Positions 1 to 54,612 of a DNA stretch of 64,000 bases are shown here, in pieces (within the stretch, counting starts at the first letter, position 1; each line of letters begins with the position of its first letter). A program made the position numbers and the translations under genes. The notes beneath the pieces are model-generated. The model was not told the origin of the DNA and searched no databases. It saw only the letters and a program-made list of their open reading frames with translations. This DNA comes from Rhizoclosmatium globosum (lineage: Eukaryota; Chytridiomycota; Chytridiomycetes; Chytridiales; Chytriomycetaceae), in assembly GCA_002104985.1 (NCBI GenBank), contig MCGO01000022.1:531268-595267 (forward strand), read 5' to 3'.

Positions 1-2905
1 CACCTCCTAACCTACTACTTCTCCGAGGCCTTTGATTCTGACCTCCCCCTTGTCCTTCCACTTGTTTCCGCCTTTTCTCTGTTCTCTTAAGCTCTGCTGC
101 AGCTTTAGTTATATAAGTGCCAACAGTCACAGGTCCCAACAGAAACTCATCGTCAGGTACAATGTCTCTGGGTAAGTCATCCACTCCTTTATACCGATCA
201 TCAATCCATTTCCGATAAACCGTGTAAGCCCTACTTTTGATCTGTTTCTGGTATCCCCAGAAAATCTTTAATGTTTCCTCCGGTAGTGTCTCGTCGGTAT
301 GCATTTGTAATTCTCTTACACCTTTCAACTTTACCACATAAAAGAATCCTGTTCCTTCTCGTCCCACATGAGTAATGGCCAAAATTTTATGTAAAGGATC
401 TGTGTCCTCGGTATGGTCATACTCTTCCATCTTTCTTCTCAAAGAAGGGTGAGTCGCAAACAATGGTTCGTGAGAGTACAAAGGCCTCCTCGTTAGGATA
501 CGCCCTTGTTTCTTCCACGCAGCTATTTCAGCTTTTAACTCCTCTTCCTTTGACACTTGTCGCACTGCTCTTTCAGCTGACTCTATTGGTCTCCTATGAA
601 CATAGGGTCTTAACCTACTCACATGTGCTTCACGTTGAACTACTTCTCCCCCCGGAAAAGTTTCCACCACTCTAAATAAAGTTCCTGAATCACCTTTAGA
701 CTGATCCATGATTCTTACAGGTCCAACCCATCTAAAGATAAATTTCTTTGGAGCTTTCAATCTCTGCATCTCACTTTCTAGTGGTACTGCTAACCAAGCT
801 CTGTCGCCGATCTCAAAGGTATGAGGTGCGCGGTCGTTTTCCAACGATTTTTCCCTAAGGGCCTCTTTTGCCTTGGCCACCTTTTCTTTTATAACGCTCT
901 GAGCTGCGTGAAGTCCTTTAAGGATGTACTTCATAAACAATTTACGCCGCTCATCATCCTTGAGTTTCCTAGTATCGACTACGGGTCGATCAACTGCCTC
1001 CTCTAGCTCAACTTCCTCGTCAGCTTCTTCATCGACAAAAACTTCAAAGATATTCCCTCGGCTCTCTTCGAATACAAAGGTCTCGGTCGACTTTACTCCC
1101 ACTGAGTATTCTGGTGGGTTAATTATCCAGAATTTTCCTGCTTTGTCCCAAAGCGGTTCAGCACCAAATAAATGTAAATCTCTCCTTCGAGGGTCGACAA
1201 GACTAACGGTTTTGTCTAAGTATTCCTCTTTCTCGTACGAACGATAAGTGCACTTCACGACTCCGACACCTTGTTCGCGTCCTAAGGTTACAACCGGTCT
1301 GCCATCGTTATACTCAAGATCTTCGGGCGAAGGTCCAATCTCCAAACTATTCGTTCGGCTATACACGGCCACAAGTCGAGAAACAGGTACCTTACCCATT
1401 CTTTCGTCAAAACCGTTCTCCTTCCCCGGGCTCAAACAATATACCGCGTCCCGTAGGTCAGCTCTCGATCCATCTCTCAAATAAATACAATTTGGGAAAG
1501 GACTAACTTTCGACTTCATTTTAGGATCGTACACTAAACACAACACATCCAAGTCGTGTCTTTCGAGGATGTCTCTTAGCATCATCCACAAAGGTTGATC
1601 GTCTTTGGTGTATCCGTACAAGTGTTTGCAACACTTATCTTTAAACTGCTCAACACTAACAAACTGGGCAACAGAAATCCTAGGAAGCCCTTCCCGTTTC
1701 CTATTGCTTTCCGCGTTTCCCTCGATATGTATGTTTGTTTCGGCTTCAATCCTTTCAACAGCCGCAGCTTCTTCTTCGTAAACCGCGTCATCAGGATTAA
1801 CGTCCCTGGGACTAATTCCAACGAACATATCCGTAGGTAGTCTCGCGTCTCTACCATGCCATGCAAAGTAGGGTGTCTCGTTAGTGGTTCCGTGTGGGTG
1901 CGTTCTATACGCAAACATTACAAAAGGGAGTATCTCTTCCCAATCGTTAAACTTAAATTTATCAATATACGCTCTTATCTCCTGTGATAGAGTTTTGATC
2001 ATCCTTTCGGCAGGTCCATTTGCTCTCGGCCAATAAGGCGCGGTAAAAGTCTTTTCGAATCCCAACCATCGGCTCAGTTGATGCACCAATGTACTATCAA
2101 GTGGCGGTCCTCCATCAGTGTGTAAGAAGACAGGTATTCCGTACCTACAGAATATCCGAGTCACTAATGCTTTACAAACAGTTTCCCCCGTCAAGTCAGG
2201 AATAGGGATGGCTTCAGCCCACTTCGTAAAGCTATCTACCCACACCATTATATAACGGTTTCCATTAGGGTTCTCTTTTCCCGTATCCATAAAATCTAGG
2301 AACGTTCGCTCCATTGCAAACTCTCCCAAAGGTATTGGATGTAAGTAACCAGTTTTCGTATGAAAGTCCTTAGATTTATTACAGGTTTCACACGATTCCA
2401 CGTGGTTCCTCAGATCTTTAACAATATCTGGCCACCAGAATCTATCCAACAACACGGGTAACACCTTCGCATGGCCGAAATGCCCTGCGTAGATATCGTC
2501 GTGGTGCCTCTCAAGAATTGTTCTCTTCAAAGAGTCAGGTACGCATAAAGCTATTCTTCCTGATGCCCTCCTAACCACATTTGTGTTCAAGTCCGAAACA
2601 AAGAACAGTAAGCCATTCAAGTCCAAAACCATTCGCTTTGATCTTGTAGCCATAGTTTCGGCATCCAAGTCTTCGGGTATTTCGAACTTCTCTTTGAAGC
2701 GAATAATGGGTCCTAAATAAGGATCCTCCAACTGCTTTTCACGCCACGTTTTCAAGGATTCTCCTTGAGTGAAGGACATAACTCCTAAATTAATCTCCAA
2801 TTCTTCCTCACAGAGTTTTATTGATCCATCGCAAATGTTGAGAAGTCCGACGTTGCCTTTCCATTCAGCCACTCTGTGGTGTCTACTAACATTTCTTCTC
2901 CTATT
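1..2905 (-). CDS. Pol, C-terminal part: integrase with GPY/F-like and chromo-like region (partial)
   Basis: One frame is open from just after a stop at 2906-2908 to base 1 with no stop; the first ATG is at 2779. It integrates element cDNA into the host genome. In order I see an HHCC zinc-binding region (about 2380-2530, ending CETCNK), then catalytic residues D in WVDSFTKW (2234-2236), D in HTDGG (2114-2116) and E in NGPAERM (2006-2008), a DD35E spacing. A GPY/F-like module follows, with KFIFRWVGP near 740. A stretch at about 230-400 with FYVVKLKG resembles a chromodomain, which in chromoviruses steers integration to heterochromatin. That last identification is weaker than the integrase call. 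Upstream it connects to the EEP domain through an apparent frameshift at 2840-2880. The C-terminus lies outside the window. Confidence 0.9.
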
Positions 2906-2942
2906 TTAGGGAATCCCTTCAAACTCGTGTGTAATTCGACTC

Positions 2943-3956
2943 TCAGTGGTCACTCCCACTCATGTCTGCATCGATTCGAACGTCGAATCCCTCCTCTTCG
3001 ATTCGCTTATCTATTAACACATGGTCGATTCTCCAAAATGGATATTCCGTCTTATTCTTAGCCTTCAACAGCCAAGTCGCTCCCAAGTCATCAGGATGTT
3101 TCACTCGAAAACCATCATGATAGTTCTCAGTCATTTTCTTGAACCATTCCTGTTCTTCCTTACTAATAGTTGAGGGGAATCGGTTCACCAATTTGTCTTC
3201 TGATACTATCGGCGAAACATCATTCATTGTCGGCGCAATATTCATGTCTCCCAACAAGATTACAAGGTGATCTTCTCTCAGGTTGTCACAGTGTGTCTTG
3301 AGGTCGTCTAAAAACTTCAATTTATACTCTGGCGCTCTGAGTGTCTCATTCCACTCGGACATAAGTATTTACTATTGCTATATCTCCAAGGATCAGGGTT
3401 AACACTCGTCCTTTATCTCCATCGTAGACAAGTGTCTCTCCGCCCTTAGATATCTCCATTCCTTCGATGGTCTTGGCTTCTACTTTTCCGTAGATTCCTT
3501 CCTCCATAAGATTGCGACTCCTGCATATCCTGTTTCTGAGTCATTCAACGAACATTCCAGTTCGGGAGCTCTTTAAAGCAGCGAATAACTTCTTACTTTT
3601 ATTATTCGTACCCATTCGTGTTTCCTGTAGACAAACGATACTACATCTCTGTGAATCAAGAAATGTTCGACTCTTTCTGTCAAAGGTAAGAGTTTAAGGT
3701 CGTGTTCTTCGTCGTATTTCTTCAATAAACTCCGCAATCCGTTAATATTCCATGTTGAAACGTTTATACTCTTCGAGATTGGCATTGTCTCAGGTTTCTG
3801 TCTCGGTACTTTCTGCACGTCTCTCAAGTTTTTCAGGCGCTTATCTGTTTTAGACTTATTCATAAGTCTCGTTCCTAAGTCGGTCATAAGATCGTTCGTG
3901 CTCTCAGGTTCAGCTGCTTCTGCAACCTGATTCGAAGTATATGTTTCCAAGAACAA
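2943..3956 (-). CDS. Exonuclease III/AP-endonuclease-like (EEP) domain inside Pol, between RNase H and integrase
   Basis: This is a metal-dependent endonuclease fold of the EEP superfamily (exonuclease III, APE1, LINE endonucleases). All signature motifs appear in the correct order: WNINGLRS (3735-3752), LQET with the metal-binding Glu (about 3619-3631), GYAGVAI (about 3515), VNTYV (about 3370), GDMNIAP (about 3241-3253), RIDHVL (about 3020) and SDH (2943-2951), followed by PLRVEL in the next frame. They lie in several frames joined by apparent single-base losses near 3672, 3545, 3490, 3357 and 2946. The same orientation and continuous coding on both sides place it inside Pol, not in a separate host gene. 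EEP domains are usual in non-LTR retrotransposons; I do not know a Ty3/gypsy lineage carrying one. Possible roles in cDNA processing or target cleavage are speculation. Confidence 0.85.
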
Positions 3957-4113
3957 TCTACGGTGTTCGCTCTTTGCAACTCTCTCTGTTTGTCAGTCGT
4001 AGCATATTTATTATACATGTATGTTTGGTACAAAGTTTTTAAAGGGGTATTCTCGTTCTCCCTTCCAGAATCCCCGGTCTCTTGACCATCAGCCTCTTTT
4101 TTAATCGCGTGCT

Positions 4114-4820
4114 TCACTCCTGTGAAGTCAACTCTTGATAGTGTATCGGTACAACCTGGTTTTTTCCTGGTACGTGAATGATTGACAAATCATAATCTGA
4201 AAGGGCGTAAGCCCATCTCGCGAATCTTCCTGTCAAAGCACCGCTTTTCACCAATTGTACAAGAGCTGAATGATCAGTTTCGATAGTAACTGGTCGATCG
4301 AAGATATACTTATCGAAGCAGCCACAAGCCCATACTACCGCAAGACCTTCTCGGTCTGTGTTCGAGTACTTCTGTTCCACTTCGTTCAGCGTTCTCGAAA
4401 TGAATGCAACAGGTTTTCTATCTGCTCGAGTTCCTTTCGGTCCTTTTGCGTAGAGTGCACCGCCTAAAGCCGTGCCAGAAGCATCACATTCGATGATATA
4501 TTCTTCGTTATCTCCCGGTAAGTATAATATTTTATCGTCACACAAAGCTGCTATTAATTTTTAAACGCTGCTTCGCATGCTTCTGTCCAAACCCACGATT
4601 TATCTCCTTTCAAGAGCGAGTACAACGGCGCTGCAATAGACGCGAAATCTTTAATGAATCTTCGGAAGTAGTTTCCAAAACCTAAGAAAGACTGCAATTG
4701 TCTAATTCCCGTTGGTACAGGCCAGTTTCTCAATTTAGAAATCTTATCTGGATCTCTCCTAAACCGTCCTTCGAAATAACATGTCCCAAAAATGGTAACT
4801 CTTGGTGGAAGAGTGCACAT
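4114..4820 (-). CDS. Pol: RT thumb/connection and RNase H
   Basis: This is the continuation of Pol in shifted frames. At 4554-4820 the RT thumb reads PTGIRQLQSFLGFGNYFRRF, typical of Ty3/gypsy. At 4114-4545 RNase H has an ECDAS start, Glu in the TDREGLAVVW helix, ETDHSALVQL and a terminal HVPGKNQ. It degrades the RNA strand of the RNA-DNA hybrid. Frames join the preceding RT at about 4758, join each other at an A-run at 4557-4562 (AAFK to KLIAAL), and join the following linker at about 4157 (HVPGKNQVVP to DTLSRVD). Each junction is explained by one missing base. The linker to the EEP domain (about 3800-4150) is charged and has no motif I recognise. Confidence 0.88.
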
Positions 4821-7800
4821 TTCGACGGTTTTATTTTCAAATTATACAAGTACATTCGCTCCAGAACCTTCTCAAGGTGTTCAAAGTGTTCTTCCTCTGT
4901 CTTCGAATAGATTATAATATCATCCACGTATACCAACGCGAAAACAAATTTATACCCAGCTAACACTGCGTCCATCATTCGTTGGAATGTTGGTGGTGAG
5001 TTTGTAAGCCCGAACGGAAGAACCTTAAAATGGTAAAGTCCTTGTGACGAGATAAAGGCAGTCTTCTCTTTACTCTCTTCGTCCATAGGAATCTGCCAGA
5101 ATCCACTCATCAAATCCACTGATGAGAAATAATGTTTTCCCGAAACCATGTCAAAGGTCTCGTCTATTCTTGGTAGAGGGTATCTGTCAGGTATCGTTAT
5201 CTGATTTAGTTTCCGAAAATCAGCACAGAATCTCCAATTACCATCGGCTTTCTTCGCCAAAACCACTGGAGCGGCATATTGAGACGTTGACGGTTCAATT
5301 ACCTCATCTTTCAACATTTTCTCAATATGTTCTCGCAATATCTGAGTTCGACCCGCCCCTTCCGGGTATGGGTGTGAATGAGGTATGCGAGCTCCTGGTT
5401 TCAACTCAATTTTATGTGCAGGGACTCTTTTCGTTCCTGTCACTACATCACTTTTAAAGACATCAATATATTTTCCAATTAAGTCCAGAAGCCTCCTTTT
5501 TGTGTCTGGGCCATAAAAGTCGGAGTCCATATGACTCAAGTCAATCTTATTAAAGATTTCTTCGTTCGACTTATACTCTTCAGGCATGTAATCTCTTTTA
5601 TCCTCTTTTGTGATATCATGTCCTGGTGTTGAATTCATGATTGGGTCAGGATCCAATTCCGATTCTACTATCTTCGTGTAGGTATAAGGGTCAAGCGTCT
5701 TTAAATCTTTAATAAATCTCGGATCGCGAATAGAATCTATCCATTCAGCGCGTCTTTCACGTATTCTTCGCTTCCGACGCGAAGTTTCATCTTCTAATTC
5801 ATATTTCTTGTCAATCTTCTTTGACAATTCATCGACGATGTCCTCTATATGCAACATCACCGCTCTGAACTCTTTATGAGTACGGGGTTTCTTCCTTCCT
5901 ACTGATTGTAAGATCGGGTCGAGGAAGTCCTTTTCTTTAAACAGTTTGTTCACTGAGGTAGGTTTCTGTTCAAGCACAGACTCGAAGAAATCCTCATCTA
6001 ATGAAACGTAAAGTTCTATCCGTCCTTCCGTTTCGTAGTCGGCCTCGTCTGACTCCTTCTCTGAGTCTTCGTCGGAATCCTCTTTATTCGGTGGGTCGAC
6101 AAAGTCGAGTTCGTCAACCAGTATAGGTTGGACCCTAACCTCTTCTTCTAAAGGCGTTTCGGGTGGTTTGTCCTCCATTAAACAGCTAAGAAACGCGATG
6201 TTATTCCCTGGATTATGCATTTTCGCCTGTAACGCCATTTCGATCATCATTGATTGATCGTTCACGTCTATACTTTTAGGTACATCTAATACAGGTACGT
6301 CCCCACATTGGACGGTTGCTAAGCATATTCCTTCATCTAATTTTAATTCCTCCGATCCCACATAAGTCAGTTGCATTTTAACTGCTTTCGAGTTGACATC
6401 TTCAACCCGATATATCGTATTTGCTACAAGAATTCCTCTGCTAGCCATATCAGGGAAACCTTGAAGTAAGCAATTTTCTTGGTTGTTGGGTAGCTTTCTA
6501 TCCAACTCTACTAAAACTATTCTTCCTTCCATTGGTTTCAGGAGTATATTTTCTTTAAGAACCATCGTCGGTTTCTCTTCTGGAACATACTCTTCATAAT
6601 ATTTTAATGGTACACTCAATCGTTCTTTATTGTGTACTAGTTCACCATTTTTCGTGTAGAACGAACGTGCTTTCATTCTGGGACCATAGAATAGCCTATC
6701 GATTGAAAAGCACAAGTCCATTTCAAATAGTTTAATGGCTGGTGTTCCCAGTATTATTGGTCTTGGCAATCCTGGAACCAGCGAAAACTTCACTTGTCTT
6801 TTGTATCCGTTTCTTTCACCAATGCAAACGTCGGCGTAAAAATAACCTATCATGGTCATTGATCCCGCTATCCCCTTCGTTGTTCTCAACGAATCATACT
6901 TGAATAGTCGAGGCCGTACACGAAATGACTTGTAAAATTCCAAAGAAGCCGAATTATGGTTCGCTCCGGTATCTACAAGTGCATCTGAAAAGTGAATCAT
7001 CTCCACGAACAGACTTATAGTCGTGATTCGAAAAACTCCATCCAACATGGAATAGGTCGCAAGTTCCACGTTTATATCTTTGTAATTGGTTCCTGGGACA
7101 TCGGATACTCTCGCCGTAGCTATTGATCCATCTTCAAAGACAGCGGTGAGTTTTTCTTCGAACTCAACGTTCTTTCGAGTTTTACAGAACGTTTTTACCT
7201 TAGGTGCAAGTTCATTCTTCTTCTCACGTCCTTTCTTATTCAGAAAGATGGGGTTTTTAAGGATATTCCTTGAGGGTATAACCTCTCGGTGATTTGTACC
7301 AACTTTGGATTCTAACTCACTTATAGGTACAGCATTCCATTCGTACCTATGAATCGGCGAAATCTGGGCGTCGAATGCTTTTGAAAGAGGGTCAATCGAC
7401 TCCTTCGACGGTATTTCCAATTCCATTCTTTCTTCATTCGACTCCGTTCCTTCTTGAGTCGATTTTCCAGTATGCATTCTCACATCACTACTAATTAAGA
7501 TTTTATTTTCAAAAGCTAACTCTCCATTATTAGAGGTTTCAACAGTAAGTTCAGAATCATTATTACACGTAAATTCAATAGGCACTTCGAATTGAGAAAC
7601 ATTATTAATTAAGTTTAAAGGTTTGTCGTTGTTGTTTGTTGTTTCTGTCAAAATGTTAATTTCATTCACAGTCTCCTCCTGTTCTGACTCACATCTGTCG
7701 CCGGCTCGTTCAGCTTTCACCGCACGGATAGCTTTCTCTACTACGTCAGCATACGGACAGTCAGCGGCTCGATGGCCTTCCTCCTTACAAGTGAAACACT

Positions 7801-10264
7801 TCTGTGGCATAGGGCGATTCGAGACTCTCCAATTCTGACGTTGATCCGTACTCATATTGAAGGTGTTTGCAATCAATTCGAACTTCTCGTCCCAGTTTTG
7901 AGGGTTCGTTTCCTGGTTCACCTGCATCAAAGCCGTGTGTAAAACCTTTTCCATGTTCGTATTAGGTCCGATTCCTTGACCATAGCGGCGTCCTTCCGAC
8001 GGCGCACGGTCACGATCTCTTTCACGATCATTCCGGTGACGACTCTGTTCTCGTTTACGCTCTTCCAGGAGCACCTGAGTCAACTTTCCAATATCAGCTG
8101 ATGTCTGCGCTTGTTGAAGTGCCACGTGTTGTACTGCGGTTTCCAAAGACGAAAGTCTGCTATCTTCGCGACTAGACTTCTTGTTACGTATTTCACCGTT
8201 AAAACCTTTCTTGTACAAGAATTGAGCAACCATGTCCATAGTTACACGTGAATCAGTGTACTTGACTTTCGAACCAGCCACTACAAAGTCGTGGTCATGT
8301 AGACGTTGAATTATACCGTCTTGCGTCGATTCTGGAATTTTAGCAATGAATGTATCCTTCAACGTTTGTGCGCTAACTGCTTTGTCACCCAACAGATGAT
8401 TCGCATTCTTACGCATTTCGCTTTCCTTCAGCGCATTGTTCGAACTCCATTCCCCATTAATCAAGGCTTGAGCTGCTTTAAATTGGACAATCGACGAGGT
8501 AACCAAAGTCTCCCATGCCCAATTAAAGTTATTAAACGTAGGGTCTCGACGCAAAGATGCCTTGAACGTCATGATATCGCTATCAGTAGAGTCCATGGGC
8601 AACGTTTGAACAAAGTTCTTGATGAACTCATCATCGGTCTTGTACCTCTTGTCTTGACCCACATAATCAGCTTTCAAGGCGTCGACGGCTCTCTTCCATG
8701 TTTCACGAGTATCCTTGTTCAAAGGTTCATTATGGAAGGACCTGACTCTTGTATCGAAGTTATTGTTTCCATACAATACACCCGTCAGTTTATCGGCAAA
8801 ATCAGTGAAACCTGTCATGGTATTCGAACCAATGTCAGAAACAGCATTATTGAGGCTCTTAACTTGTAAGCCAATTCCGGAAACTTCTTGGTTTACTGAC
8901 TCCGTCGCTGTAGCTAGACGTTCACTGTGTCTTGCAATCAAGTTTGCATGACCCTCAGCTTTTCTGTTCGAATGAACCAACTCATCCAACATAGTTCTCG
9001 GACCTTCTTGTTCTGGTTCCTCTTCCTGGTCTTGAGGTTCATCCGGGATAATTTCTACCGGCGTCAATGCATTATTGGGATATGTTTTTCCCAACTCATT
9101 CATCAGTTTGCGATAGTTATCATGGCTGTACGCTCTAACTCGAGTACCAGTCCTTGCTTCAAGGTGTTCTTTAACTTCCTTGAAGATTTGGCGAAGGGTT
9201 ACGTCACTGGTAACCTCAATGTTATCTGGGATCCGGAGGGTACCCGAAGTCTCAGTCCAAGAGTAAGATACTCCGTTAATACTGAATTGAATCATGATTC
9301 TAGGTGTTGTATTGTTAAACCAAATCCATAAGACACCAACGATCAAGGGTGTCCATAACAGGGACATCATAACACTCACGGGAACAAGATAGGTTGAGGA
9401 CCAGCCATCAATACTCGAAATACCGGTCGTCGGTTTAATTATAGAAGCAACTATCAAGTTGAAGAGGAGCCGATTCTTGGATCTTTTTGAAATACAACCT
9501 CTCCTCCCACCGCTTCTTAAAACTTCATCTCGGGTCATTTTCAAGCAATTATTATTCAAATAAACTCGATTAAACTCATTAAATGATGTAGATTCAACAA
9601 CACACTTCAAAGAATAAAGGATTACTTCAGAAATAATGAAAGTAACAAATTCAGTTACGCTTGTAGGATCAGCTTCGCTAGTTCCTTTCGCGAGAATATC
9701 TTCCTCCAGAGGATGAGTAATTTGGACGTCCGCGGTTTGAGGGACGTGGATCCCATTCACCTGTTCGAGAATGAATCCTTGATCACCTCTTCCTTCAACC
9801 TCACCTCTGTGGTCGTCATATTCGCGCTGTCCATAGCGATTACCTCTCATACGGTTATTACGGTTATTTTTCTTTTGAGCTCGATTGGCTTTTCCGAAAT
9901 CCTTTTGCTGGGCCAGATAACCTCCGATCTGCGCTCCAGTCAATGCCGCAATTCCGATATTGTCTTTCGTAAGTGGCGTAGATGCGGTAATCCCCGATTG
10001 GAGATTAATTCCGGCCACAACTTTCTGAAGGTTCGAGAGCTCTTCTTCTCTCGCCTTTTTCAAGAAGAACGTCTTTCCTACAGGAAAGAAGGACTTAGAA
10101 TAATCATATAGTCCCCTCCAAGTCGAAACTTGGGTACGCAGATATAAAAATCTGGAAATTCCTACAACAACGCTCCACAACTCAACCCAAAATAAAGTCA
10201 ACTTACTTTCATCCCTATCCGTGGTGGTGTTCCCGATTGGTCCTTTCCTTGGGCACGGATCCAA
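4730..10264 (-). CDS. Gag-Pol polyprotein: Gag, CCHC knuckle, aspartic protease, reverse transcriptase
   Basis: This is a single open frame of 1844 codons. The long frame begins at a TTG; the first ATGs in frame are 9850 and 9538, so the true start is uncertain and may need splicing or frameshifting from upstream ORFs. Gag is helical with an Arg-rich tract. Its knuckle CFTCKEEGHRAADC lies at about 7760-7802, the protease motif VDTGANH at about 6965-6985, and the RT palm YVDDIIIYS at about 4915-4940, with FCADFRKLN and LPFGLTNSPPTF upstream. A long acidic spacer separates knuckle and protease. Unusually, about 9340-9450 encodes one or two strongly hydrophobic segments (VSVMMSLLWTPLIVGVLWIW), which look membrane-spanning and are upstream of the main Gag helices. 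The frame ends after FLGHVISKDG, where the RT thumb continues in the next frame. Confidence 0.92.
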   Translation of the reverse strand: MDPCPRKGPIGNTTTDRDESKLTLFWVELWSVVVGISRFLYLRTQVSTWRGLYDYSKSFFPVGKTFFLKKAREEELSNLQKVVAGINLQSGITASTPLTKDNIGIAALTGAQIGGYLAQQKDFGKANRAQKKNNRNNRMRGNRYGQREYDDHRGEVEGRGDQGFILEQVNGIHVPQTADVQITHPLEEDILAKGTSEADPTSVTEFVTFIISEVILYSLKCVVESTSFNEFNRVYLNNNCLKMTRDEVLRSGGRRGCISKRSKNRLLFNLIVASIIKPTTGISSIDGWSSTYLVPVSVMMSLLWTPLIVGVLWIWFNNTTPRIMIQFSINGVSYSWTETSGTLRIPDNIEVTSDVTLRQIFKEVKEHLEARTGTRVRAYSHDNYRKLMNELGKTYPNNALTPVEIIPDEPQDQEEEPEQEGPRTMLDELVHSNRKAEGHANLIARHSERLATATESVNQEVSGIGLQVKSLNNAVSDIGSNTMTGFTDFADKLTGVLYGNNNFDTRVRSFHNEPLNKDTRETWKRAVDALKADYVGQDKRYKTDDEFIKNFVQTLPMDSTDSDIMTFKASLRRDPTFNNFNWAWETLVTSSIVQFKAAQALINGEWSSNNALKESEMRKNANHLLGDKAVSAQTLKDTFIAKIPESTQDGIIQRLHDHDFVVAGSKVKYTDSRVTMDMVAQFLYKKGFNGEIRNKKSSREDSRLSSLETAVQHVALQQAQTSADIGKLTQVLLEERKREQSRHRNDRERDRDRAPSEGRRYGQGIGPNTNMEKVLHTALMQVNQETNPQNWDEKFELIANTFNMSTDQRQNWRVSNRPMPQKCFTCKEEGHRAADCPYADVVEKAIRAVKAERAGDRCESEQEETVNEINILTETTNNNDKPLNLINNVSQFEVPIEFTCNNDSELTVETSNNGELAFENKILISSDVRMHTGKSTQEGTESNEERMELEIPSKESIDPLSKAFDAQISPIHRYEWNAVPISELESKVGTNHREVIPSRNILKNPIFLNKKGREKKNELAPKVKTFCKTRKNVEFEEKLTAVFEDGSIATARVSDVPGTNYKDINVELATYSMLDGVFRITTISLFVEMIHFSDALVDTGANHNSASLEFYKSFRVRPRLFKYDSLRTTKGIAGSMTMIGYFYADVCIGERNGYKRQVKFSLVPGLPRPIILGTPAIKLFEMDLCFSIDRLFYGPRMKARSFYTKNGELVHNKERLSVPLKYYEEYVPEEKPTMVLKENILLKPMEGRIVLVELDRKLPNNQENCLLQGFPDMASRGILVANTIYRVEDVNSKAVKMQLTYVGSEELKLDEGICLATVQCGDVPVLDVPKSIDVNDQSMMIEMALQAKMHNPGNNIAFLSCLMEDKPPETPLEEEVRVQPILVDELDFVDPPNKEDSDEDSEKESDEADYETEGRIELYVSLDEDFFESVLEQKPTSVNKLFKEKDFLDPILQSVGRKKPRTHKEFRAVMLHIEDIVDELSKKIDKKYELEDETSRRKRRIRERRAEWIDSIRDPRFIKDLKTLDPYTYTKIVESELDPDPIMNSTPGHDITKEDKRDYMPEEYKSNEEIFNKIDLSHMDSDFYGPDTKRRLLDLIGKYIDVFKSDVVTGTKRVPAHKIELKPGARIPHSHPYPEGAGRTQILREHIEKMLKDEVIEPSTSQYAAPVVLAKKADGNWRFCADFRKLNQITIPDRYPLPRIDETFDMVSGKHYFSSVDLMSGFWQIPMDEESKEKTAFISSQGLYHFKVLPFGLTNSPPTFQRMMDAVLAGYKFVFALVYVDDIIIYSKTEEEHFEHLEKVLERMYLYNLKIKPSKCALFHQELPFLGHVISKDGLGEIQIRFLN

Positions 10265-10391
10265 CTGGCTTGGTTCGCATAATCCAATTCTCTTGAAGAG
10301 TATTGACGTTACGCCACGCGTTAGTCAGCTGTTCATTGAGAGAATCGATTCGTTCTTTAAGTCTGAAAACTTGTTCCTCGTTGTTTACCAT
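10215..10391 (-). CDS. Small ORF of the retrotransposon leader, 58 aa
   Basis: The ORF starts with ATG at 10391 inside the last codons of the preceding ORF, so that ATGGTAA holds both this start and the other ORF's stop. It begins MVNNEEQVFRLKERIDSLNE, a heptad-like charged helix, and ends in a His-rich tail before TAG at 10215-10217. It overlaps the beginning of the long gag-pol frame in another frame. The overlap suggests reinitiation or a lost base joining this helix to the upstream coiled coil. No family recognised. Confidence 0.45.
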   Translation of the reverse strand: MVNNEEQVFRLKERIDSLNEQLTNAWRNVNTLQENWIMRTKPVGSVPKERTNREHHHG

Positions 10392-10849
10392 AGCTCGGCT
10401 CCTTCGGGAGGAGTCGACCCTGTAGTCACGGTTAGTTTGGCCTCGGCTTCTTTCAAGCGCGACTGAAAAGTATCACATTGCTTTTTGTGATGGTCGCGAC
10501 GACCAGTCAAATGCTTGCAACGGTGTTCCAATTCAACAACCTTATTCTTGGCGGCTGTGTACTTGGTAACCGTCTTATCAAGTTGCTCCATAATCAAATC
10601 GCGATCTTTCTTGACAGTTTCAAGCTCAGTCGCAGTCTCAATCGCTTGGTCTTGAACCGCAATCAAATTGTTTTGGACAGCGGTAAGCTTGGCACGCAAG
10701 TAGGTTTCAGAGTCGTTGCCAACGGTTCTCCCAGTGAAGTTTCTTGACAGCCGTTTCCAAAGAGTTTCTTGGTCAACGTCAATTACCATGGTCGCACTTG
10801 GCAAGGGAGAGAGTTCATCCACAATCTCGTCCTCGGCCGTAGATGCCAA
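10385..10849 (-). CDS. Coiled-coil ORF upstream of gag
   Basis: The open frame is about 154 codons with no ATG at its left boundary; a Met occurs in TMVIDVDQETLWKRL at about 10790. Most of it is a predicted coiled coil (heptads through AIETATELETVKKDRDLIME and the following 60 residues). No catalytic motif is visible. It may be the first part of Gag or an additional pre-gag protein, as known in some large plant Ty3/gypsy elements such as Ogre. It could be joined to the ORF at 10892-11002 by removal of a 63-nt in-frame intron-like segment (GTTTGT...CAAG). That joining is my inference. Confidence 0.45.
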   Translation of the reverse strand: MASTAEDEIVDELSPLPSATMVIDVDQETLWKRLSRNFTGRTVGNDSETYLRAKLTAVQNNLIAVQDQAIETATELETVKKDRDLIMEQLDKTVTKYTAAKNKVVELEHRCKHLTGRRDHHKKQCDTFQSRLKEAEAKLTVTTGSTPPEGAELW

Positions 10850-10891
10850 AGTGGACGCGCTTCCTTGAGTTTCAACAAGTTCTAATCACAG

Positions 10892-11002
10892 TTATTCAGC
10901 GTGTACCTTCGCAACAGTATACAAACTATTGGTCTTGAGATCACAACTGTCCTCAATGTCGTCAAAGTCGTAATCAATAAGCTCTTCTTCCGTTTGGCTC
11001 AT
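10892..11002 (-). CDS. Short acidic ORF at the start of the retrotransposon coding region, 36 aa
   Basis: ATG at 11002, stop at 10892-10894. It begins MSQTEEELIDYDFDDIEDSC, is strongly acidic, and lies in the same frame as the coiled-coil ORF downstream after two stops. A candidate intron whose length is a multiple of three would join them, so this may be the true N-terminus of Gag. No homology recognised. Confidence 0.35.
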   Translation of the reverse strand: MSQTEEELIDYDFDDIEDSCDLKTNSLYTVAKVHAE

Positions 11003-11207
11003 GTTTTTAGGGTGTTTTTTGTTTTGCACTGAACAAAAAGAAAGAAAGTCTTTTAAAGTTTCTAAATCAGGAACGTGATTCTGAGAACGTGCCCTTTAGG
11101 TTGATTGTGATTGGTTGGTTTGCAAAAAACATGTCAGTGTTCTTTTATTAGCTTCACATCTCACGTCAAACAACACGTGTATACTCGTCATTACGGTTCT
11201 GGACTTC

Positions 11208-11570
11208 TTAATCGTCCTCATTATCCGAAACTAGGTCTGGCATTGATGTATCATCAGAGATGTCAACAAGTTCTGGTAAATCGTCCAACGTTGCCAAATC
11301 TGGTGTTGATAGTTCACAGTACAATGCTAAAGCATTCTGTAGAAACTCGCTTGGCGAAGTAGGAAATCCATATCTTGTACTCTGTACTTGATACAGGATC
11401 AAATCGTCTTGAATCCGAGTTCCACGAAAGTATTGTAGTGTTCCCAACAGCTCCTGTTGTTCCGGTGTGAGGGACTCATCGACGACTCCGGTTTGTTTGT
11501 CACAATCCCTCGGACAAGCTACTGCTTTCTCGGCCTCTGTCAAGGATGACAAGGTCAACGTCTTCGTCAT
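11208..11570 (-). CDS. Unrecognised ORF at the 5' end of the retrotransposon, 120 aa
   Basis: The first ATG in frame is at 11570; the frame is open to 11639 without a better start. The protein has a central part with EQQELLGTLQYFRGTRIQDD and an acidic tail ending DNEDD. There is no signal peptide, membrane segment or zinc site. Orientation matches gag-pol, and it lies between the candidate primer-binding site and gag, so it is probably an accessory or pre-gag ORF of the element. Confidence 0.4.
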   Translation of the reverse strand: MTKTLTLSSLTEAEKAVACPRDCDKQTGVVDESLTPEQQELLGTLQYFRGTRIQDDLILYQVQSTRYGFPTSPSEFLQNALALYCELSTPDLATLDDLPELVDISDDTSMPDLVSDNEDD

Positions 11571-11912
11571 TCGCTGAGTTTCCAGAATGTATCCGCGAAT
11601 CCAAATTCGGAAATCGATTTTCACATCACTTATGGCCACGCAGTCATCTAAGTGATATCATGTTTTGTTATTTGTTCATGCCGTTGAACCCAAAAATCCA
11701 TTCCAACTAAATAAGTCCAACTTTAAACAAAGTACATCCTTTTACTTCGATTTTAAATTGTTTATTTATACATAGCTTCTCCAATAAACTAGTTCAGCTC
11801 TCACTAAGAGAGGCCTCATGTTTTAAACTACATGGAGTCTCATGTCTAATACATGGTACTACACACATTCCCGTGTGGTCAATCTCACTCACAACTCTAG
11901 GTTGTCGCTTTT

Positions 11913-11926
11913 ACGTTGGGCCCCCA
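11913..11926 (-). other. Candidate primer-binding site
   Basis: On the plus strand ACGTTGGGCCCCCA resembles the 3' end of some tRNAs (ACGTTGGGCGCCA in Lys-type tRNAs) with mismatches. It stands three bases before the TGTAACA at which the candidate LTR starts. The position is right for a minus-strand element. The match is imperfect, so this is tentative. Confidence 0.3.
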
Positions 11927-11929
11927 TTC

Positions 11930-12837
11930 TGTAACAAGTAAGGGTTGCTTCCCCTTTCCAGGTTTCAATCCTCGCTACCATCCTACAACACTCGCTCCTA
12001 GGTCTACGCTTACTTGCCAAAAAGCACGGTACGAATCAGTACCCTGGTCCCTCCTCCGTGGCTCCAATGATTCCAGGTACTGTCTGAAAGACCCAAGGTC
12101 TTCGCTCGCTAAGACACTAATCCCAGGCTGACGTAAATAAAGAACAATAAAAGAAATAACACATCGCTACGCTCTACCACTCCCTCCTAATGTTCCAGTA
12201 GTCCGTTACCGTTACATCATCCACTCCGCTCATCCGCTTGTTACTCCCGAGGCAAGATCCGTTACCCCCGAGAGACCCGACTTCGCTAACATTCCTGAAC
12301 GCCTCGGTGCGCCACCATAGCCCTTATGTCCATAGTGTGGAGTCTACGCTGATAGTTCCAGTCGCCGCTGGCTTTCCACCGCTTCCTCTGTGCAACAGAT
12401 CCATGGGTCAGCGTTCAAGCCTACAACCCATGGCAAGGCACGTGCTCCGTGGCCGGAGGAACCTGGGGTGCTCCACACACGCTAGCCCCAGCCCCCGCCA
12501 TGCACACGTACCCCACACATCCAGCCTACTCGTTCAGTCCAGAGGTAGCCCACTCCTCTCTTCGATTCGTCCCCTGCTACCTCCTTTGGTTCGCTAACCT
12601 GTAGTTCGCTAATCCGGCATCGGACTCCCTAACTCGGCCTTTCCCTTCGGTCGAGGTGACTTGTGTCTCGCTGATCCAGAGTACTCGCTCCGGCGCGTCT
12701 ACCGTGAAACCGGCCTATGGTGGCGTCTCCCTAAGAGCGGCCACGCCCGTCTGTTACACGTCGACGCCGTCGCTCGCTCGAGGTCCGTCTCGCTCTGGGC
12801 GACCTTGATCGACTCGCTCGCCTTTCAATTCGCAACA
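11930..12837 (-). repeat. Candidate 5' LTR
   Basis: The segment starts TGTAACAAG and ends CGCAACA, giving TG...CA borders of 908 bp. It is GC-rich compared with its surroundings, contains no convincing ORF, lies between the leader of the retrotransposon and the casein kinase gene, and follows a primer-binding-like site. The second LTR is outside the window, so the borders are a best guess. Confidence 0.4.
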
Positions 12838-13081
12838 ACTTTTTATTCCAATAATAGACACTGTTCTAATCTAAAGTCCCCAACTAAAATTCCAAAAATA
12901 GATAAAGAAAACGTGTCGAGTCCAAGTCCGAACCAAACCCCAGAACGTGCGCCTGCACACGTTACACGCCAACCGCGCCTCGTCGCAGCCAACGGCCGCC
13001 CAGTCCGCCGCAACTCTCCTCGCAAAACAACAACAACAACAGCAACAGCAACAGTTCTCGCCGCAGCAGCAGTACAACGCC

Positions 13082-22340: not shown

Positions 22341-22412
22341 GACTCCTTGGCGCAACGGTAGCGCGTTCGTCTCCAAAGCGAAAGGTTGCGTGTTCAAATC
22401 ACGTAGGGGTCA
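22341..22412 (+). tRNA. tRNA-Trp (CCA)
   Basis: A full cloverleaf: acceptor GACTCCT/AGGGGTC with discriminator A, anticodon stem TTCGT/GCGAA with loop CTCCAAA, and T-arm with GTTCAAATC. There is no intron. It is identical over all 72 bases to the gene at 31115-31186. Confidence 0.95.
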
Positions 22413-31114: not shown

Positions 31115-31186
31115 GACTCCTTGGCGCAACGGTAGCGCGTTCGTCTCCAAAGCGAAAGGTTGCGTGTTCAAATCACGTAGGGGTCA
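31115..31186 (+). tRNA. tRNA-Trp (CCA), second copy
   Basis: Identical in all 72 bases to the tRNA-Trp at 22341-22412. Flanking sequences differ apart from two bases, so the copies are not part of an obvious tandem duplication. Confidence 0.95.
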
Positions 31187-33506: not shown

Positions 33507-33620
33507 AAAATAAACTATTGATTATCTTTCAATGTACATTGGGTTAGCGCAGTTCTTGACTGACATCTGAAACAACTTTGAAACCAAGAGGAGTGGAGCC
33601 AACCCCCAACACCGAATCAA

Positions 33621-34892
33621 ATGGGATCTGTCCTCAGCCGCTTGATTCCATTCAAGAAAGTAGCGCTGAGGGCTCACAAGAAACAGAAGCTGAATGAAAG
33701 AGCCGACTCTGTATTCCAGTTCCCAAACCTTCCCCTTGAGATCGGGTCCGAGATTCTAAGCTGGCTACCGCCAAACCAAGTCATGCAATACCGGCGATTA
33801 TCGAGAACTTTTGATGCATGTTTGACGTCGAGATACTTTGCTACATTGAATCTGTCGAGATTCTTGGGAGTTGTGGACACAACTGCAACTAATCGACTCA
33901 CAGCGAATTCATTTGATCTACTTCTTCCAGGATTGCCTAAAACGTATCAAGAAGTTTATGTTTCACTCGAGCTTTCCAGTGTCGTCAAATTGTCATGGAG
34001 CTATTCAAAGTTTAGGCGCCTGCGGATTCCAGACTCTCTTGGCACTATTGATACGCTGGAGTATTTAGATCTCAGCTATTGTCTTCTGGAAGGCCCTATT
34101 CCCACTGATTTTGGGACTGACACTTTCAAAAGTCTTCGAGTACTGCGGTTGCATTGTAACGCACTGTCGAGGGAAATACCAGAGTCTATTGGCGGTATTA
34201 AACAGCTCGAGAAGCTAAATTTAATGTTTAATAAGCTCTCGGGACCTATTCCGTCAACTGTAGGATCTTTGTCAAATCTCAAGACACTTTGTTTGAATGG
34301 AAATCGGTTAACATCTTCTATTCCTCCTGAAATTGGATCCTTATGTAGCTTAGAAGAGCTCTACTTGAATAGTAACCAGTTGTCGGGCGAAATTCCCATT
34401 GAACTTGCGAATCTAGGAGAATTGCGGAAACTGGACATCTCAAAGAATCTGATTACAGGCAGTATTCGTGATGAAATCAGTCAGCTTTCTAAGCTTCTTT
34501 CCTTGGATTTGTCGGAAAATCATTTGCTGGGGTCGATACCTGCATCTTTGGCTCGTATGCATCGCTTGCGAGATCTTTCTCTTTCAAGCAATAATCTCTC
34601 TGGAAAGATTCCGGTCGAGTTTGGGAGTTCCGCAAGCCTGGAACATATACATATCAACTGCAACAAGCTTTCAGGCGTCATTCCAAAACAGTTAGGACAG
34701 CTTATGACTCTACGCTGTTTGCAGGTTGTAGGTAATAATCTAACCGGTTCGATTCCAATCGAACTTTGTGCGTTACCTCGATTGCGAGAACTTCACATTG
34801 CGGATAACTGTGGGATCACTGTTTCGGAAGAGACTAGAGTAAACCAGGAACAGCTCAAGTGGCTCCAAGAGAGGGTTGATGTTGATTTATGA
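33621..34892 (+). CDS. F-box and plant-type leucine-rich-repeat protein A
   Basis: A single intact exon of 423 codons from ATG 33621. The N-terminus MGSVLSRL is a possible N-myristoylation site. Residues about 35-72 form an F-box-like motif (LPLEIGSEILSWLPPNQVMQ), which in other proteins binds SKP1 and makes the protein a substrate adaptor of an SCF ubiquitin ligase. From about residue 125 some ten repeats of the plant-specific LRR type follow (LxGxIPxxLxxLxxLxxLxLxxN, e.g. NLKTLCLNGNRLTSSIPPEI). There is no signal peptide, so it is intracellular. Five related genes lie in this window. Ligand and target unknown. Confidence 0.85.
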   Translation: MGSVLSRLIPFKKVALRAHKKQKLNERADSVFQFPNLPLEIGSEILSWLPPNQVMQYRRLSRTFDACLTSRYFATLNLSRFLGVVDTTATNRLTANSFDLLLPGLPKTYQEVYVSLELSSVVKLSWSYSKFRRLRIPDSLGTIDTLEYLDLSYCLLEGPIPTDFGTDTFKSLRVLRLHCNALSREIPESIGGIKQLEKLNLMFNKLSGPIPSTVGSLSNLKTLCLNGNRLTSSIPPEIGSLCSLEELYLNSNQLSGEIPIELANLGELRKLDISKNLITGSIRDEISQLSKLLSLDLSENHLLGSIPASLARMHRLRDLSLSSNNLSGKIPVEFGSSASLEHIHINCNKLSGVIPKQLGQLMTLRCLQVVGNNLTGSIPIELCALPRLRELHIADNCGITVSEETRVNQEQLKWLQERVDVDL

Positions 34893-35000
34893 AGTTTGTT
34901 GAATAAAAGGCATGCGCCGTTGAGTCAAATTGATGTTCTATTGACAAGTTCAAAAGAGCCACCCCCGCCTCAAAAGGATCCTTTCAAATCCACATCAATC

Positions 35001-36128
35001 ATGGTACACCAACAGAACCGCTCGTCCCATACTTCAGACTCTCTAGCAGCTAGTCCACTTGAGGTCAATGTTCTCCCACTCAAAATCAGCCTACGATCCC
35101 TCTCAACGTCTCCCAATCGCATCTTCAAGCTTCTACATCCGTCGAAACTTCACCCACCTCCTCAAAGTACATCCATACAGCTTCCAACCCTCACTTATGA
35201 CATAATCTTCCACATCCTCACATACCTCCCACCATCCCATTCCATCAAACTACGCCGCCTCTCACAAATGTTCAACACGTATCTTCAGTCCCGTGCATAC
35301 GCAGTTGAGAATATCAAGAACTTCGCGGTGGAGAAGGCGGATGCTGTGATTTGCACAGCTGTGGATATGACTGAATATGATCGCTTGTGGCTGGTCCTTC
35401 CTCCCGCTTACGCAGCATTGTACGCGGAATCGCATTTAGATACAACGTCCATTGATTGGCCGTTCATGAGGATGAAAGCTGGTGCAAAGGTTCCACCGTC
35501 GTTGGGAATGTTGAATCTGCTCACGCGACTGAATTTGGGATGGTGTAGTCTTGTGGGTGAGATACCTCGGGAATTAGGGGCGTTGGTGAATTTGCGGGTG
35601 TTGGAGTTGCAACGGAATGATTTGAGTGGAGAGATTCCTTGTGAACTTGGGAACTTGGTGCAGTTGGAAGTGTTGAATCTTTCGGATAACCTTTTAGAGG
35701 GATGTTTACCAAGAGAGTTGTTTCGATTGAGAACGTTGAAAGAGTTTAAGTTAGGACATAATCGGTTGTCGGGCGAGTTGGGGGAATATGTCGATGGGTT
35801 ACAAGGCTTGGAAGTGTTTGATGTTTCGGTGAATGTAATTCAAGGTCAGATTCCAGCTGGGTTTGGGAACTTACGAAAGTTGAAGGAGTTGAGGCTGAAT
35901 GACAACTCATTTGTCGGGGAGGTTCCAGGAGAGTTGTGCACTTTAGTAGAGATGGAAGTCTTAATGTTGAATCGGAATCGATTAACTGGAGAGTTTCCGA
36001 GTGCGTTGGAAAGGTTACCAAGGCTAAAAGAGCTTAAAGTTGCACACAACCAATTTATGGGACCTTTACCGCCGAAACTGCGAAAGGCGACGAAGTTAAT
36101 GGATCGCTTGATGATGCATATATCATGA
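35001..36128 (+). CDS. F-box and plant-type leucine-rich-repeat protein B
   Basis: Intact, single exon; 35001 is the first ATG in a frame open from 34896. About 70 residues of Ser/Pro-rich N-terminus are followed by an F-box-like motif (LTYDIIFHILTYLPPSHSIK), a spacer with YDRLWLVLPPAYAALY, and about eight LRRs (e.g. LVNLRVLELQRNDLSGEIP). The spacer motif (DRLWxxLPxxY) recurs in copies C and D, so the family has a conserved central region. It follows gene A in tandem with 108 bp between stop and ATG. GT-rich codons in the LRR part differ from the C-rich N-terminus. Confidence 0.83.
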   Translation: MVHQQNRSSHTSDSLAASPLEVNVLPLKISLRSLSTSPNRIFKLLHPSKLHPPPQSTSIQLPTLTYDIIFHILTYLPPSHSIKLRRLSQMFNTYLQSRAYAVENIKNFAVEKADAVICTAVDMTEYDRLWLVLPPAYAALYAESHLDTTSIDWPFMRMKAGAKVPPSLGMLNLLTRLNLGWCSLVGEIPRELGALVNLRVLELQRNDLSGEIPCELGNLVQLEVLNLSDNLLEGCLPRELFRLRTLKEFKLGHNRLSGELGEYVDGLQGLEVFDVSVNVIQGQIPAGFGNLRKLKELRLNDNSFVGEVPGELCTLVEMEVLMLNRNRLTGEFPSALERLPRLKELKVAHNQFMGPLPPKLRKATKLMDRLMMHIS

Positions 36129-52597: not shown

Positions 52598-53731
52598 ATG
52601 GCTTACATCAAGAACTCAGCCGCATCGGCAAAAACATTCACTCTCCGCTCCAACGCCCCTTCTCACTACAACAATGCCGAGCCTTCTGTGCGAGAGCTTG
52701 CAAGTAGACGTGATATTATCGAATATCTCTCACTTCGGCCCTCGAACGAAAGCAACATTCCGCAAGACATTACCATCATCACTCAACCACGTTATCCCAC
52801 TGTCGTCACCACCATTCCTGGCTTTCTGCCTGGCGATGTTTTACTTAATATCCCAGCTGGATACAGATTCAGTGGTCCTTCAATTGTTTCATCTACCCAA
52901 ACGGCAGATTCCCCGTCCATGACTACTTTATCGCCCATGGGTTCGGTTCCAGAGGTTCTTATGGAAGAACTGAACAGCAACTTTGGAACCCCAACTCTCT
53001 CGCAAGATGATGAAACGCAAACTGCTTCATCGTGTAACTCGAACCTTTTCGCCTCCAACTTGGAGGCTGACCCCTTCGCATTCCTGCTTTCAGGACCACT
53101 GGAACAGCCAACTAATTCACTCACCGCTGATATCTCGCAATGGCTAGACATCATGTTTGAACCCTCTGCTCAAGTTCAATTGCCAGGTTGTTCCAGCCCC
53201 ACTACTGATTTGAGTTCTGGAAACACAAAGCAACGCAAACGCGTTCATTTAAGCCAGATGCAACGCGATCATCTTACCTCCGTCTTCAAGGAAAACAAGA
53301 TGCCGGACCCAAAGATGCTTAAAGAACTTGCTCAAAAGCTGGAACGGAAAAGAAACATGTCGTTACTGGTTCCAGAACGACGAGCGGATGAAGGAGAAAG
53401 AGCAAGTTTGATTGACAGGTTGATACGCTATTTCTTTTCAAACATCAATAAATACAGAAGTTTATCAATTCAAAACAATTTGAAGAATAACATTATCCAA
53501 TTCAAAATCGCATCACAGCAGATAACTCCCATAACACTGCAGACCAAGACTCTGACCAAGCTAGGTAAGGGTTTTCCATTAGCAAACCCCAGAGCCGCGA
53601 ACCGCGAGCGATATCAGTGGGAAGAAACAAGTGAATTTTGTTCCTCCAAGTTTCACCTCTTGTATCTCAGTAAGGGCAGAAAATGTCGGAGGAACGCCAC
53701 CAATTATGTGCTTGTTGTTCTGAAGGTGTAA
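52598..53731 (+). CDS. Homeodomain-like transcription factor (frame broken in helix 3)
   Basis: ATG 52598 (MAYIKNSAASAKTFTLR). About 205 residues of Ser/Thr/Pro-rich, probably regulatory sequence precede a basic stretch and a homeodomain start (KQRKRVHLSQMQRDHLTSVF, KENKMPDPKMLKELAQKLE; 53230-53345). The recognition helix WFQN is encoded at about 53368-53380 but in the next frame; a further one-base change would return to RRADEGERASL in the original frame. The open frame runs to 53731, overlapping the convergent F-box-LRR gene, whereas the shifted frame stops at about 53410, shortly before AATAAA at 53447. The real C-terminus therefore probably lies near 53410. Nuclear DNA-binding role is expected; target genes unknown. 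Confidence 0.65.
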   Translation: MAYIKNSAASAKTFTLRSNAPSHYNNAEPSVRELASRRDIIEYLSLRPSNESNIPQDITIITQPRYPTVVTTIPGFLPGDVLLNIPAGYRFSGPSIVSSTQTADSPSMTTLSPMGSVPEVLMEELNSNFGTPTLSQDDETQTASSCNSNLFASNLEADPFAFLLSGPLEQPTNSLTADISQWLDIMFEPSAQVQLPGCSSPTTDLSSGNTKQRKRVHLSQMQRDHLTSVFKENKMPDPKMLKELAQKLERKRNMSLLVPERRADEGERASLIDRLIRYFFSNINKYRSLSIQNNLKNNIIQFKIASQQITPITLQTKTLTKLGKGFPLANPRAANRERYQWEETSEFCSSKFHLLYLSKGRKCRRNATNYVLVVLKV

Positions 53732-54502: not shown

Positions 54503-54612
54503 GATAGTTGTCAATGTCGATTTTTGTGCTACACTTTTTTGCTTGACTGCTTTGTAACTACATTGGCAAGAAATAACCAAATCCAATTTATTAAAACAGC
54601 CTCAAAGAAACT

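Follow-up and report, generated by a model that had tools for sequence, protein, structure and literature searches.

The question raised by this locus is whether an AP endonuclease-like (EEP) domain lying between the RNase H and the integrase of a Ty3/gypsy-type long terminal repeat (LTR) retrotransposon is a regular part of that element and, if so, what such an enzyme would do beside an integrase. The locus was found in a 64,000-nucleotide stretch of the genome of the chytrid Rhizoclosmatium globosum (assembly GCA_002104985.1, contig MCGO01000022.1), which is referred to here as the window; positions given without a contig or locus name are those of the window.

Architecture and state of the copy in the window

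The element occupies positions 1-12966 on the minus strand, as do all of its features listed below, and was recognized as a Ty3/gypsy-type LTR retrotransposon by its LTR and the order of its Pfam domains. Its 5′ LTR (11930..12966, 1037 bp, TGTAAC...GTTACA) is 100% identical to the 3′ LTR of two sister copies (L009 and L010), and its own 3′ LTR is located just beyond the window edge (L048 561-1598, 98.2% identical). A candidate primer-binding site, proposed from reading of the sequence, adjoins the inner edge of the 5′ LTR (11914..11926), and a short open frame of 166 amino acids (10385..10885) separates this LTR from the gag frame. That frame (4730..10324, 1864 amino acids) encodes a gag CCHC knuckle (zf-CCHC, E=1.8e-5), a protease, and a reverse transcriptase (RT; RVT_1, E=5.5e-37) with the motif YVDD at 4919-4930. 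The protease was assigned from a DTGA motif (6962-6973) and its position; the Pfam scan of the frame returned no protease match. RNase H follows at 4186..4560, within the frame 4114-4560 (PF17917, E=2e-28), with the acidic motifs CDASG, TDREGL, and TDHSAL present. The EEP domain (2946..3764) is flanked by two fast-evolving linkers of low between-family identity, one toward RNase H (3765..4185) and one toward the integrase (2543..2945). The integrase (2000..2542, in the frame 2-2905) consists of an H2C2 zinc domain (PF17921, E=2.7e-18) and a D,D(35)E core (PF00665 [rve], E=1.6e-9) with 35 residues between its second aspartate and its glutamate. It continues in a long C-terminal extension of about 620 amino acids (2..1999), which is open in the window copy, L009, and L014, evolves faster than the integrase core, and gave no Pfam match.

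Ty3/gypsy elements (Metaviridae, chromoviruses included) share the order gag, protease, RT, RNase H, and H2C2 plus D,D(35)E integrase between TG..CA LTRs. This Pol order is present in the window element, its LTRs have TG..CA ends, and a target duplication of fixed, short length (4 bp) accompanies 3 of 6 copies. The differences are the ExoIII/APE1-type domain between RNase H and integrase and the long integrase C terminus. In contrast to chromoviruses, the window family has no Pfam chromodomain (PF00385 absent from the window frame at E<=0.1 and from L009 at E<=0.01), whereas two more distant relatives described below carry one at the C terminus.

The EEP motifs of the window copy are TWNINGLRS (3729-3755), LQET (3619-3630), NTYV (3358-3369), GDMN (3240-3251), RIDHVL (3015-3032), and SDH (2946-2954). 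The original prediction that they occur in order and in one orientation between RNase H and a DD35E integrase was confirmed. They are split over two reading frames, however, and the window copy is for this reason broken. The span of 2943..3956 proposed for the domain holds for a core of about 2946-3764, and 3765-3956 belongs to the linker. The criterion used here for the ExoIII/APE1 (xth) type was the curated model TIGR00633 with its cut-off of 99.05 bits; the window EEP, read as a single frame with stops read through, scored 66.8 bits, below that cut-off, and the Exo_endo_phos (PF03372) match is to the C-terminal half alone (frame 2943-3368, E=1.7e-7).

Compared piecewise with L009, the window copy is 99.9% identical over 4600-8000 and 97.9-98.7% identical over 1-4000, and all 12 gap columns of the alignment (first and last bins excluded) fall in bins 2500 to 4999, which coincide with the frame breaks. 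The 5′ flank, with 734 bp common to the ends of contigs C43 and C324 (99.5%), ends in GGCG, and the 3′ flank starts with GTTG and thus does not match it. The step in identity, the clustering of gaps, and the mismatched flanks suggest that the window copy, which looks like a mosaic formed from two insertions, probably arose by recombination or as a chimera of the assembly; the frame breaks, being close to the junction, may be sequence errors. Contigs C43, C324, and C135 share one flank of the same element and not the other, as do C372 and C184; this one-sided sharing is a sign of assembly chimeras or of recombination at the long repeat (1-4000 versus 4000-12966).

Recurrence of the domain order

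A search of the 56.9-Mb genome with the EEP half as the query gave 40 matches, several of which were pieces of one locus and many of which lay in long open frames. Twenty sister loci were fetched. All 20 have EEP and integrase on one strand with EEP upstream, an arrangement far above chance, and RNase H lies upstream of EEP in 19; the exception (L022) has only the C-terminal part of EEP, with nothing recognizable before it. The multicopy order that the original prediction asked for beyond the window was thereby found. In L009, the gag knuckle, RT, RNase H, full EEP, and integrase stand in one frame of 2701 amino acids within the fetched stretch, and the EEP matches both PF03372 (E=6e-18) and xth (130.7 bits) over nearly the full profiles.

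A census of loci was assembled from genome-wide profile matches (xth, 71; H2C2, 60; RVT_1, 132; all of them lower bounds) clustered at a gap limit of 3.5 kb. The loci with an integrase comprised at least 33 with the order RT-EEP-integrase, 11 EEP-integrase, 4 EEP-RT-integrase, 11 RT-integrase, and 1 integrase only; those without comprised at least 11 EEP-RT loci, which are LINE-like, 6 with EEP alone, and 60 with RT alone. EEP is therefore present in 48 of the 60 detected H2C2-integrase loci, with the caveat that haplotype duplicates may inflate all of these counts, the 48 included. By the spacing of their domains, the 48 loci fall into 34 of the window's kind (class I), 7 of class II, and 7 of class III. 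In 32 of the 48, the open frame that holds the EEP match is as long as the one that holds the integrase match, at least 5 of these 32 having a partial EEP in the frame. A host EndoIV gene was found twice, with near-equal scores (C109:9401-10311 and C372:155306-156216), and its presence on two contigs suggests that the assembly probably holds uncollapsed haplotypes.

Proteins of the same kind were sought among about 5.8 billion database sequences with residues 1300-1950 of L009, a search that admitted only sequences of 0.55-1.75 times the query length. Eight proteins were found. Two of them, P0001 (3338 amino acids, JGI) and P0002 (3286 amino acids, ENA), with identities of 31-33%, carry RVT_1, RNase H, Exo_endo_phos, H2C2, rve, and a chromodomain in that order; the precomputed domains of the other six include no Exo_endo_phos. 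No relative was found among IMG/VR contigs searched with the class I EEP-integrase alignment. The EEP-integrase part of L009 matched 11 phage records by tblastn, none over 80% of the query, and the five matches shown cover the EEP part only, in unannotated records.

Class I is a Ty3/gypsy LTR lineage in which an ExoIII/APE1-type domain is encoded in frame between RNase H and integrase, and the claim that an EEP forms part of a Ty3/gypsy Pol beside a DD35E integrase can be extended, as the domain is a regular, multicopy component. The broken and mosaic window copy would by itself be compatible with a passenger acquired by chance capture, misassembly, or the nested insertion of another element. 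Misassembly, which had been named as a possible source of the domain order, is likely inside the window copy, yet the order and the open frames stand in many other contigs and in P0001 and P0002, which rules out misassembly or nested insertion as its origin; with dN/dS values far below 1 (see below) and sister copies that already contradict it, there is hardly any probability left for a passenger or an artifact.

Copies lacking the EEP segment and showing insertion borders were the other finding that would have spoken for a recent acquisition by one copy. None were present among the 4 fetched (L054, L057, L058, and L059) of the 11 RT-integrase loci. The only close relative, L054 (C384:149 kb), is a class I copy with a broken frame and an internal deletion that removed almost all of EEP together with the linker as far as the beginning of the integrase match; it was accordingly rejected as an ancestral EEP-less site. 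The other three belong to other gypsy branches in the RT tree.

Type, conservation, and probable captures of the nuclease

All eight of the scanned class I to III proteins exceeded the xth cut-off (115.6-165.7 bits). Besides L009, these were P0001 (165.7), P0002 (125.5), L014 (122.4), and L033 (115.6) of class I, L042 (126.3) of class II, and L043 (116.2) and L044 (125.9) of class III. Three LINE-like EEPs from the same genome remained below it (71.4, 85.4, and 41.0 bits). Genome wide, 35 of the 71 xth matches (one together with its neighbors) exceeded the cut-off, and all 35 are in integrase-bearing loci, compared with none of the 11 LINE-like loci; the 13 of 48 EEP-integrase loci below the cut-off are broken, partial, or divergent. 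Against solved structures, the best matches of the class I to III EEPs were of the Xth/APE1 type, with no LINE endonuclease among the matches listed, whereas the top match of a LINE-like EEP of this genome was the L1 endonuclease.

The EEP tree comprised 52 of the 54 collected rows, as L045 and L047, which read as LINE relics, were dropped. It drew on an EEP-alone protein search with 36 hits, many of them named exodeoxyribonuclease III at their source, of which 29 passed a length filter. Class I, with nine rows of this genome plus P0001 and P0002, formed one clade (99/99), its near-identical copies having entered only in part; classes II and III together formed another (99/95); and the five LINE-like EEPs sampled from the 11 EEP-RT loci formed a separate branch (98/98). 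The position of a host APE2-like fragment was unsure. Since the Xth rows were picked by likeness to L009, this tree does not tell the source of the captured gene.

Judged by these comparisons of sequence, the class I EEP is of the ExoIII/APE1 (xth) type and not of the LINE type; a LINE-type endonuclease was rejected by the structure matches, the EEP tree, and the xth scores alike. With ExoIII and APE1 the sister copies and relatives share a near-full-length match above the xth cut-off and a conserved active site; they differ in residing within a retroelement polyprotein, in extra residues that class I has inserted behind the first motif, and in not keeping N229. With the LINE APE-type endonucleases such as L1 EN they share the EEP superfamily and the location in a retroelement, but the five sampled LINE-like EEPs, besides branching separately, lack the pocket tryptophan. 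An Exo_endo_phos match in a retroelement therefore need not mean a LINE.

In human APE1 numbering, N68, E96, Y171, D210, N212, D283, D308, and H309 are kept in all class I to III rows with letters at these columns; the rows without letters there are limited to those truncated by a frame break or by the shortness of the locus (L021 and L039). W280 is a tryptophan in 10 of 11 class I rows (leucine in P0002), a phenylalanine in class II, and an alanine or methionine in class III. Of the 11 class I rows, 4 have N226, and no row of classes I to III has N229. The loss of N229, the patchy N226, and the absence of W280 from classes II and III suggest that the preference for AP sites may be altered.

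The original prediction attributed the conservation of the motifs to selection and not to chance capture, and the substitution rates agree with it. In five within-family pairs, EEP dN/dS was 0.054, 0.048, and 0.165 in family C (the last resting on few changes) and 0.040 and 0.042 in family E, indicating purifying selection at 0.04-0.17; in five between-family pairs the synonymous sites of EEP were saturated. Amino acid identities between families A-B, A-C, and A-E were 82, 61, and 48% for EEP, 90, 71, and 71% for RT, and 91, 62, and 59% for the integrase core. In the two linkers they were 74 and 79% (A-B), 31 and 32% (A-C), and 34 and 35% (A-E). EEP thus evolves faster than RT and the integrase core (A-E, 48% versus 71% and 59%), and it appears to behave like a working enzyme that is somewhat less constrained than these two.

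Classes II and III place the domain in different surroundings. L042 of class II (C383:218000-223000) has the order RT-RNase H-EEP-integrase in one frame of 1477 amino acids with a distant RT. Class III has EEP-RT-RNase H-integrase in one open frame, as in L043 (C368:95800-101600, 1758 amino acids) and L044 (C146:333400-337700, 1415 amino acids; its RT was not detected by Pfam). The class III order is LINE-like in front, with EEP before RT, and that of an LTR element at the back, with an H2C2 integrase. A protein search with a class II query, in which scoring was limited to the 7993 candidates with the most words in common with it, gave two hits, P0046, an EEP-less relative, and P0045 (964 amino acids, ENA), an Xth-type nuclease fused to an RT with a group II intron maturase domain.

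In the RT tree, which had 21 rows, among them two poor ones that span repeated RTs (P0003 and P0006), and in which not every clade includes a named reference, class I formed a single clade (100/100) within the gypsy-type RTs, and the same region of the tree contains the other EEP-less gypsy RTs. Classes II and III grouped with the EEP-less P0046 (100/100), apart from class I. This separation and the different positions of EEP favor at least two captures of the domain or its transfer between elements, and the EEP of classes II and III probably stems from a separate capture; a single clade of classes I, II, and III was not rejected in the EEP tree (p-AU 0.315).

Insertion mode and possible roles of the nuclease

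The likening of this domain to the target-nicking endonucleases of non-LTR elements leads to a reading in which EEP nicks the chromosomal target as in LINEs and offers a second, integrase-independent route of entry. In LINEs, the endonuclease domain is N-terminal to RT and insertion proceeds by target-primed reverse transcription (PMC12809410). The class I elements lack those of these hallmarks that were tested: EEP is not N-terminal to RT, and target-primed insertion is not indicated. Six class I copies were sampled with both flanks read, and the LTRs are bordered by perfect 4-bp target duplications in three of them (GGCG, CGCT, and AACT). The other three, the window copy among them, have nonmatching flanks, which could be counted in favor of a second route, as could the membership of EEP in the superfamily of LINE endonucleases and its place in a retroelement; each of these three, however, shares one flank with another copy, and TG..CA LTRs form the ends of the copies that were read. 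The two LTR pieces of L009/L050 match the window 5′ LTR at 100% identity across the 687 bp that they have in common with it, which makes at least part of this sequence recent.

The TG..CA LTRs and 4-bp duplications of class I speak against LINE-like insertion. The acidic triad of the integrase is intact in the window copy and in four class I families, and the integrase is most likely the enzyme that would cut target DNA, given the duplications in three of six insertions, a small sample. With an EEP of the xth type that groups apart from the sampled LINE endonucleases, and with insertions that look like those of an integrase, the likening to a target-nicking enzyme was not supported, and we consider target nicking by EEP very unlikely. 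The idea of two DNA-cutting activities in one element remains plausible in the form of an integrase plus a nuclease for AP sites and 3′ ends, though not with EEP as a second target cutter.

Enzymes of the ExoIII/APE1 family incise DNA at AP sites and restore 3′ ends that are blocked or mispaired. By analogy with these activities, and from its family membership, we think it rather probable that the EEP serves as an element-borne AP endonuclease that repairs cDNA in the virus-like particle, with target cutting left to the integrase. EEP, like the rest of the Pol enzymes, would be set free in the particle and would act there on the element's own cDNA, incising abasic sites and cleaning blocked or mispaired 3′ ends, so that reverse transcription could be completed and the integrase would receive clean ends. 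This suggests that the elements may carry their own repair step along when copying themselves. Abasic sites are reported to be cut by APE1 and not by L1 EN (PMC12809410).

Such a role would be comparable to that of retroviral dUTPase in keeping uracil out of cDNA. Retroviral dUTPases are reported to go back to independent captures and to occupy several genomic positions, including one between RT and integrase (PMC2427051). They too are nucleotide-repair enzymes captured repeatedly, but they are unrelated to EEP and act on the deoxynucleoside triphosphate pool and not on DNA lesions. The Pfam scans of the element gave no dUTPase or glycosylase domain. A UDG-family gene is present in the genome and is a possible source of AP sites. 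The genome also has an EndoIV-type AP endonuclease gene and an APE2-like gene fragment, so that the element's need for an AP endonuclease of its own is not obvious. The best structure chain for the fragment was 6wcd, presumably an APE2; the fragment is one of three fetched EEP-only loci, the other two reading as LINE relics, with C34, C259, and C368:92 kb making up the six. No host APE1-type gene was recognized in the genome, where an intron-split gene could escape the search.

ExoIII-family enzymes also have 3′-5′ exonuclease and RNase H-like side activities, and EEP could be mainly a helper of this kind, trimming the ends of cDNA or of primers or proofreading for RT, with little AP cutting. 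The loss of N229 and, in classes II and III, of W280 would fit such a helper. On the other hand, an RNase H with its acidic motifs is already present, and class I has largely preserved the tryptophans of the abasic pocket; we regard this alternative as unlikely.

A role in counterdefense, in which EEP resolves lesions set on the element's DNA by a host cytosine deaminase, glycosylase, or DNA modification system, appears more doubtful still. The UDG-family gene is in line with it, as are EEPs in two distant Ty3/gypsy groups of one genome, which would be expected under a host-wide pressure, but AP cutting of heavily damaged cDNA could equally destroy that cDNA (PMC2427051).

Returning to cDNA repair, a broader and tentative reading is possible in which a nuclease of base excision repair has become a recurrent, selected Pol module of Ty3/gypsy elements in some early-branching fungi, captured at least twice, placed at either of two sites, and still present in the majority of a genome's integrase-bearing elements. 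Repair of cDNA would then be built into the element, possibly in answer to damage inflicted on cDNA by the host. Persisting additional enzyme domains in LTR retrotransposons are considered rare (PMC9289625). Where they do persist, they point to real bottlenecks in the life cycle, and a conserved AP endonuclease beside the integrase would imply that, in these hosts, Ty3/gypsy retrotransposition is limited by cDNA that is abasic or blocked.

Our search of the open PMC literature, as distinct from Repbase reports, subscription papers, and preprints, yielded no description of a conserved EEP in Ty3/gypsy elements in the portions of text it returned. The nearest case is that of the Kuafuorterviruses, some of which, being LTR elements of animals, carry Exo_endo_phos that is "only present sporadically" (PMC11673190) and have the RT motifs IADD, VADD, or LADD. 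By that description they are set apart from the present elements, in which the RT motif is YVDD and EEP is regular and under selection. Orchid Ty3/gypsy elements with an AlkB m6A demethylase (PMC9289625) likewise captured an enzyme that modifies nucleic acid, but a different one, in an additional open reading frame and with an RNA substrate. Other near cases are DNA methyltransferases carried by retrotransposons of dinoflagellates and charophytes (PMC5890265), a survey of fungi in which complex elements are noted to have additional domains (PMC3248453), and a table of camel transposon domains in which Exo_endo_phos_2 appears under an LTR heading beside LINE-type domains (PMC8605555). In the passages retrieved from PMC9926174, PMC4112212, PMC10799480, and PMC3391268, Exo_endo_phos is treated for LINEs or within a domain list, and PMC10799480 names LINEs as the transposon source of Exo_endo_phos in fungi.

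Beyond the element, the window holds two tRNA-Trp(CCA) genes (22341-22412 and 31115-31186), 8.7 kb apart and with the same Rfam score of 64.7 bits. P450, calpain-like, and other gene families are also encoded there, and together with likely leucine-rich-repeat genes they give a gene content that would fit a zoosporic fungus. By eye, several open frames at 33582-36128 and 53579-54601 resemble leucine-rich-repeat proteins.
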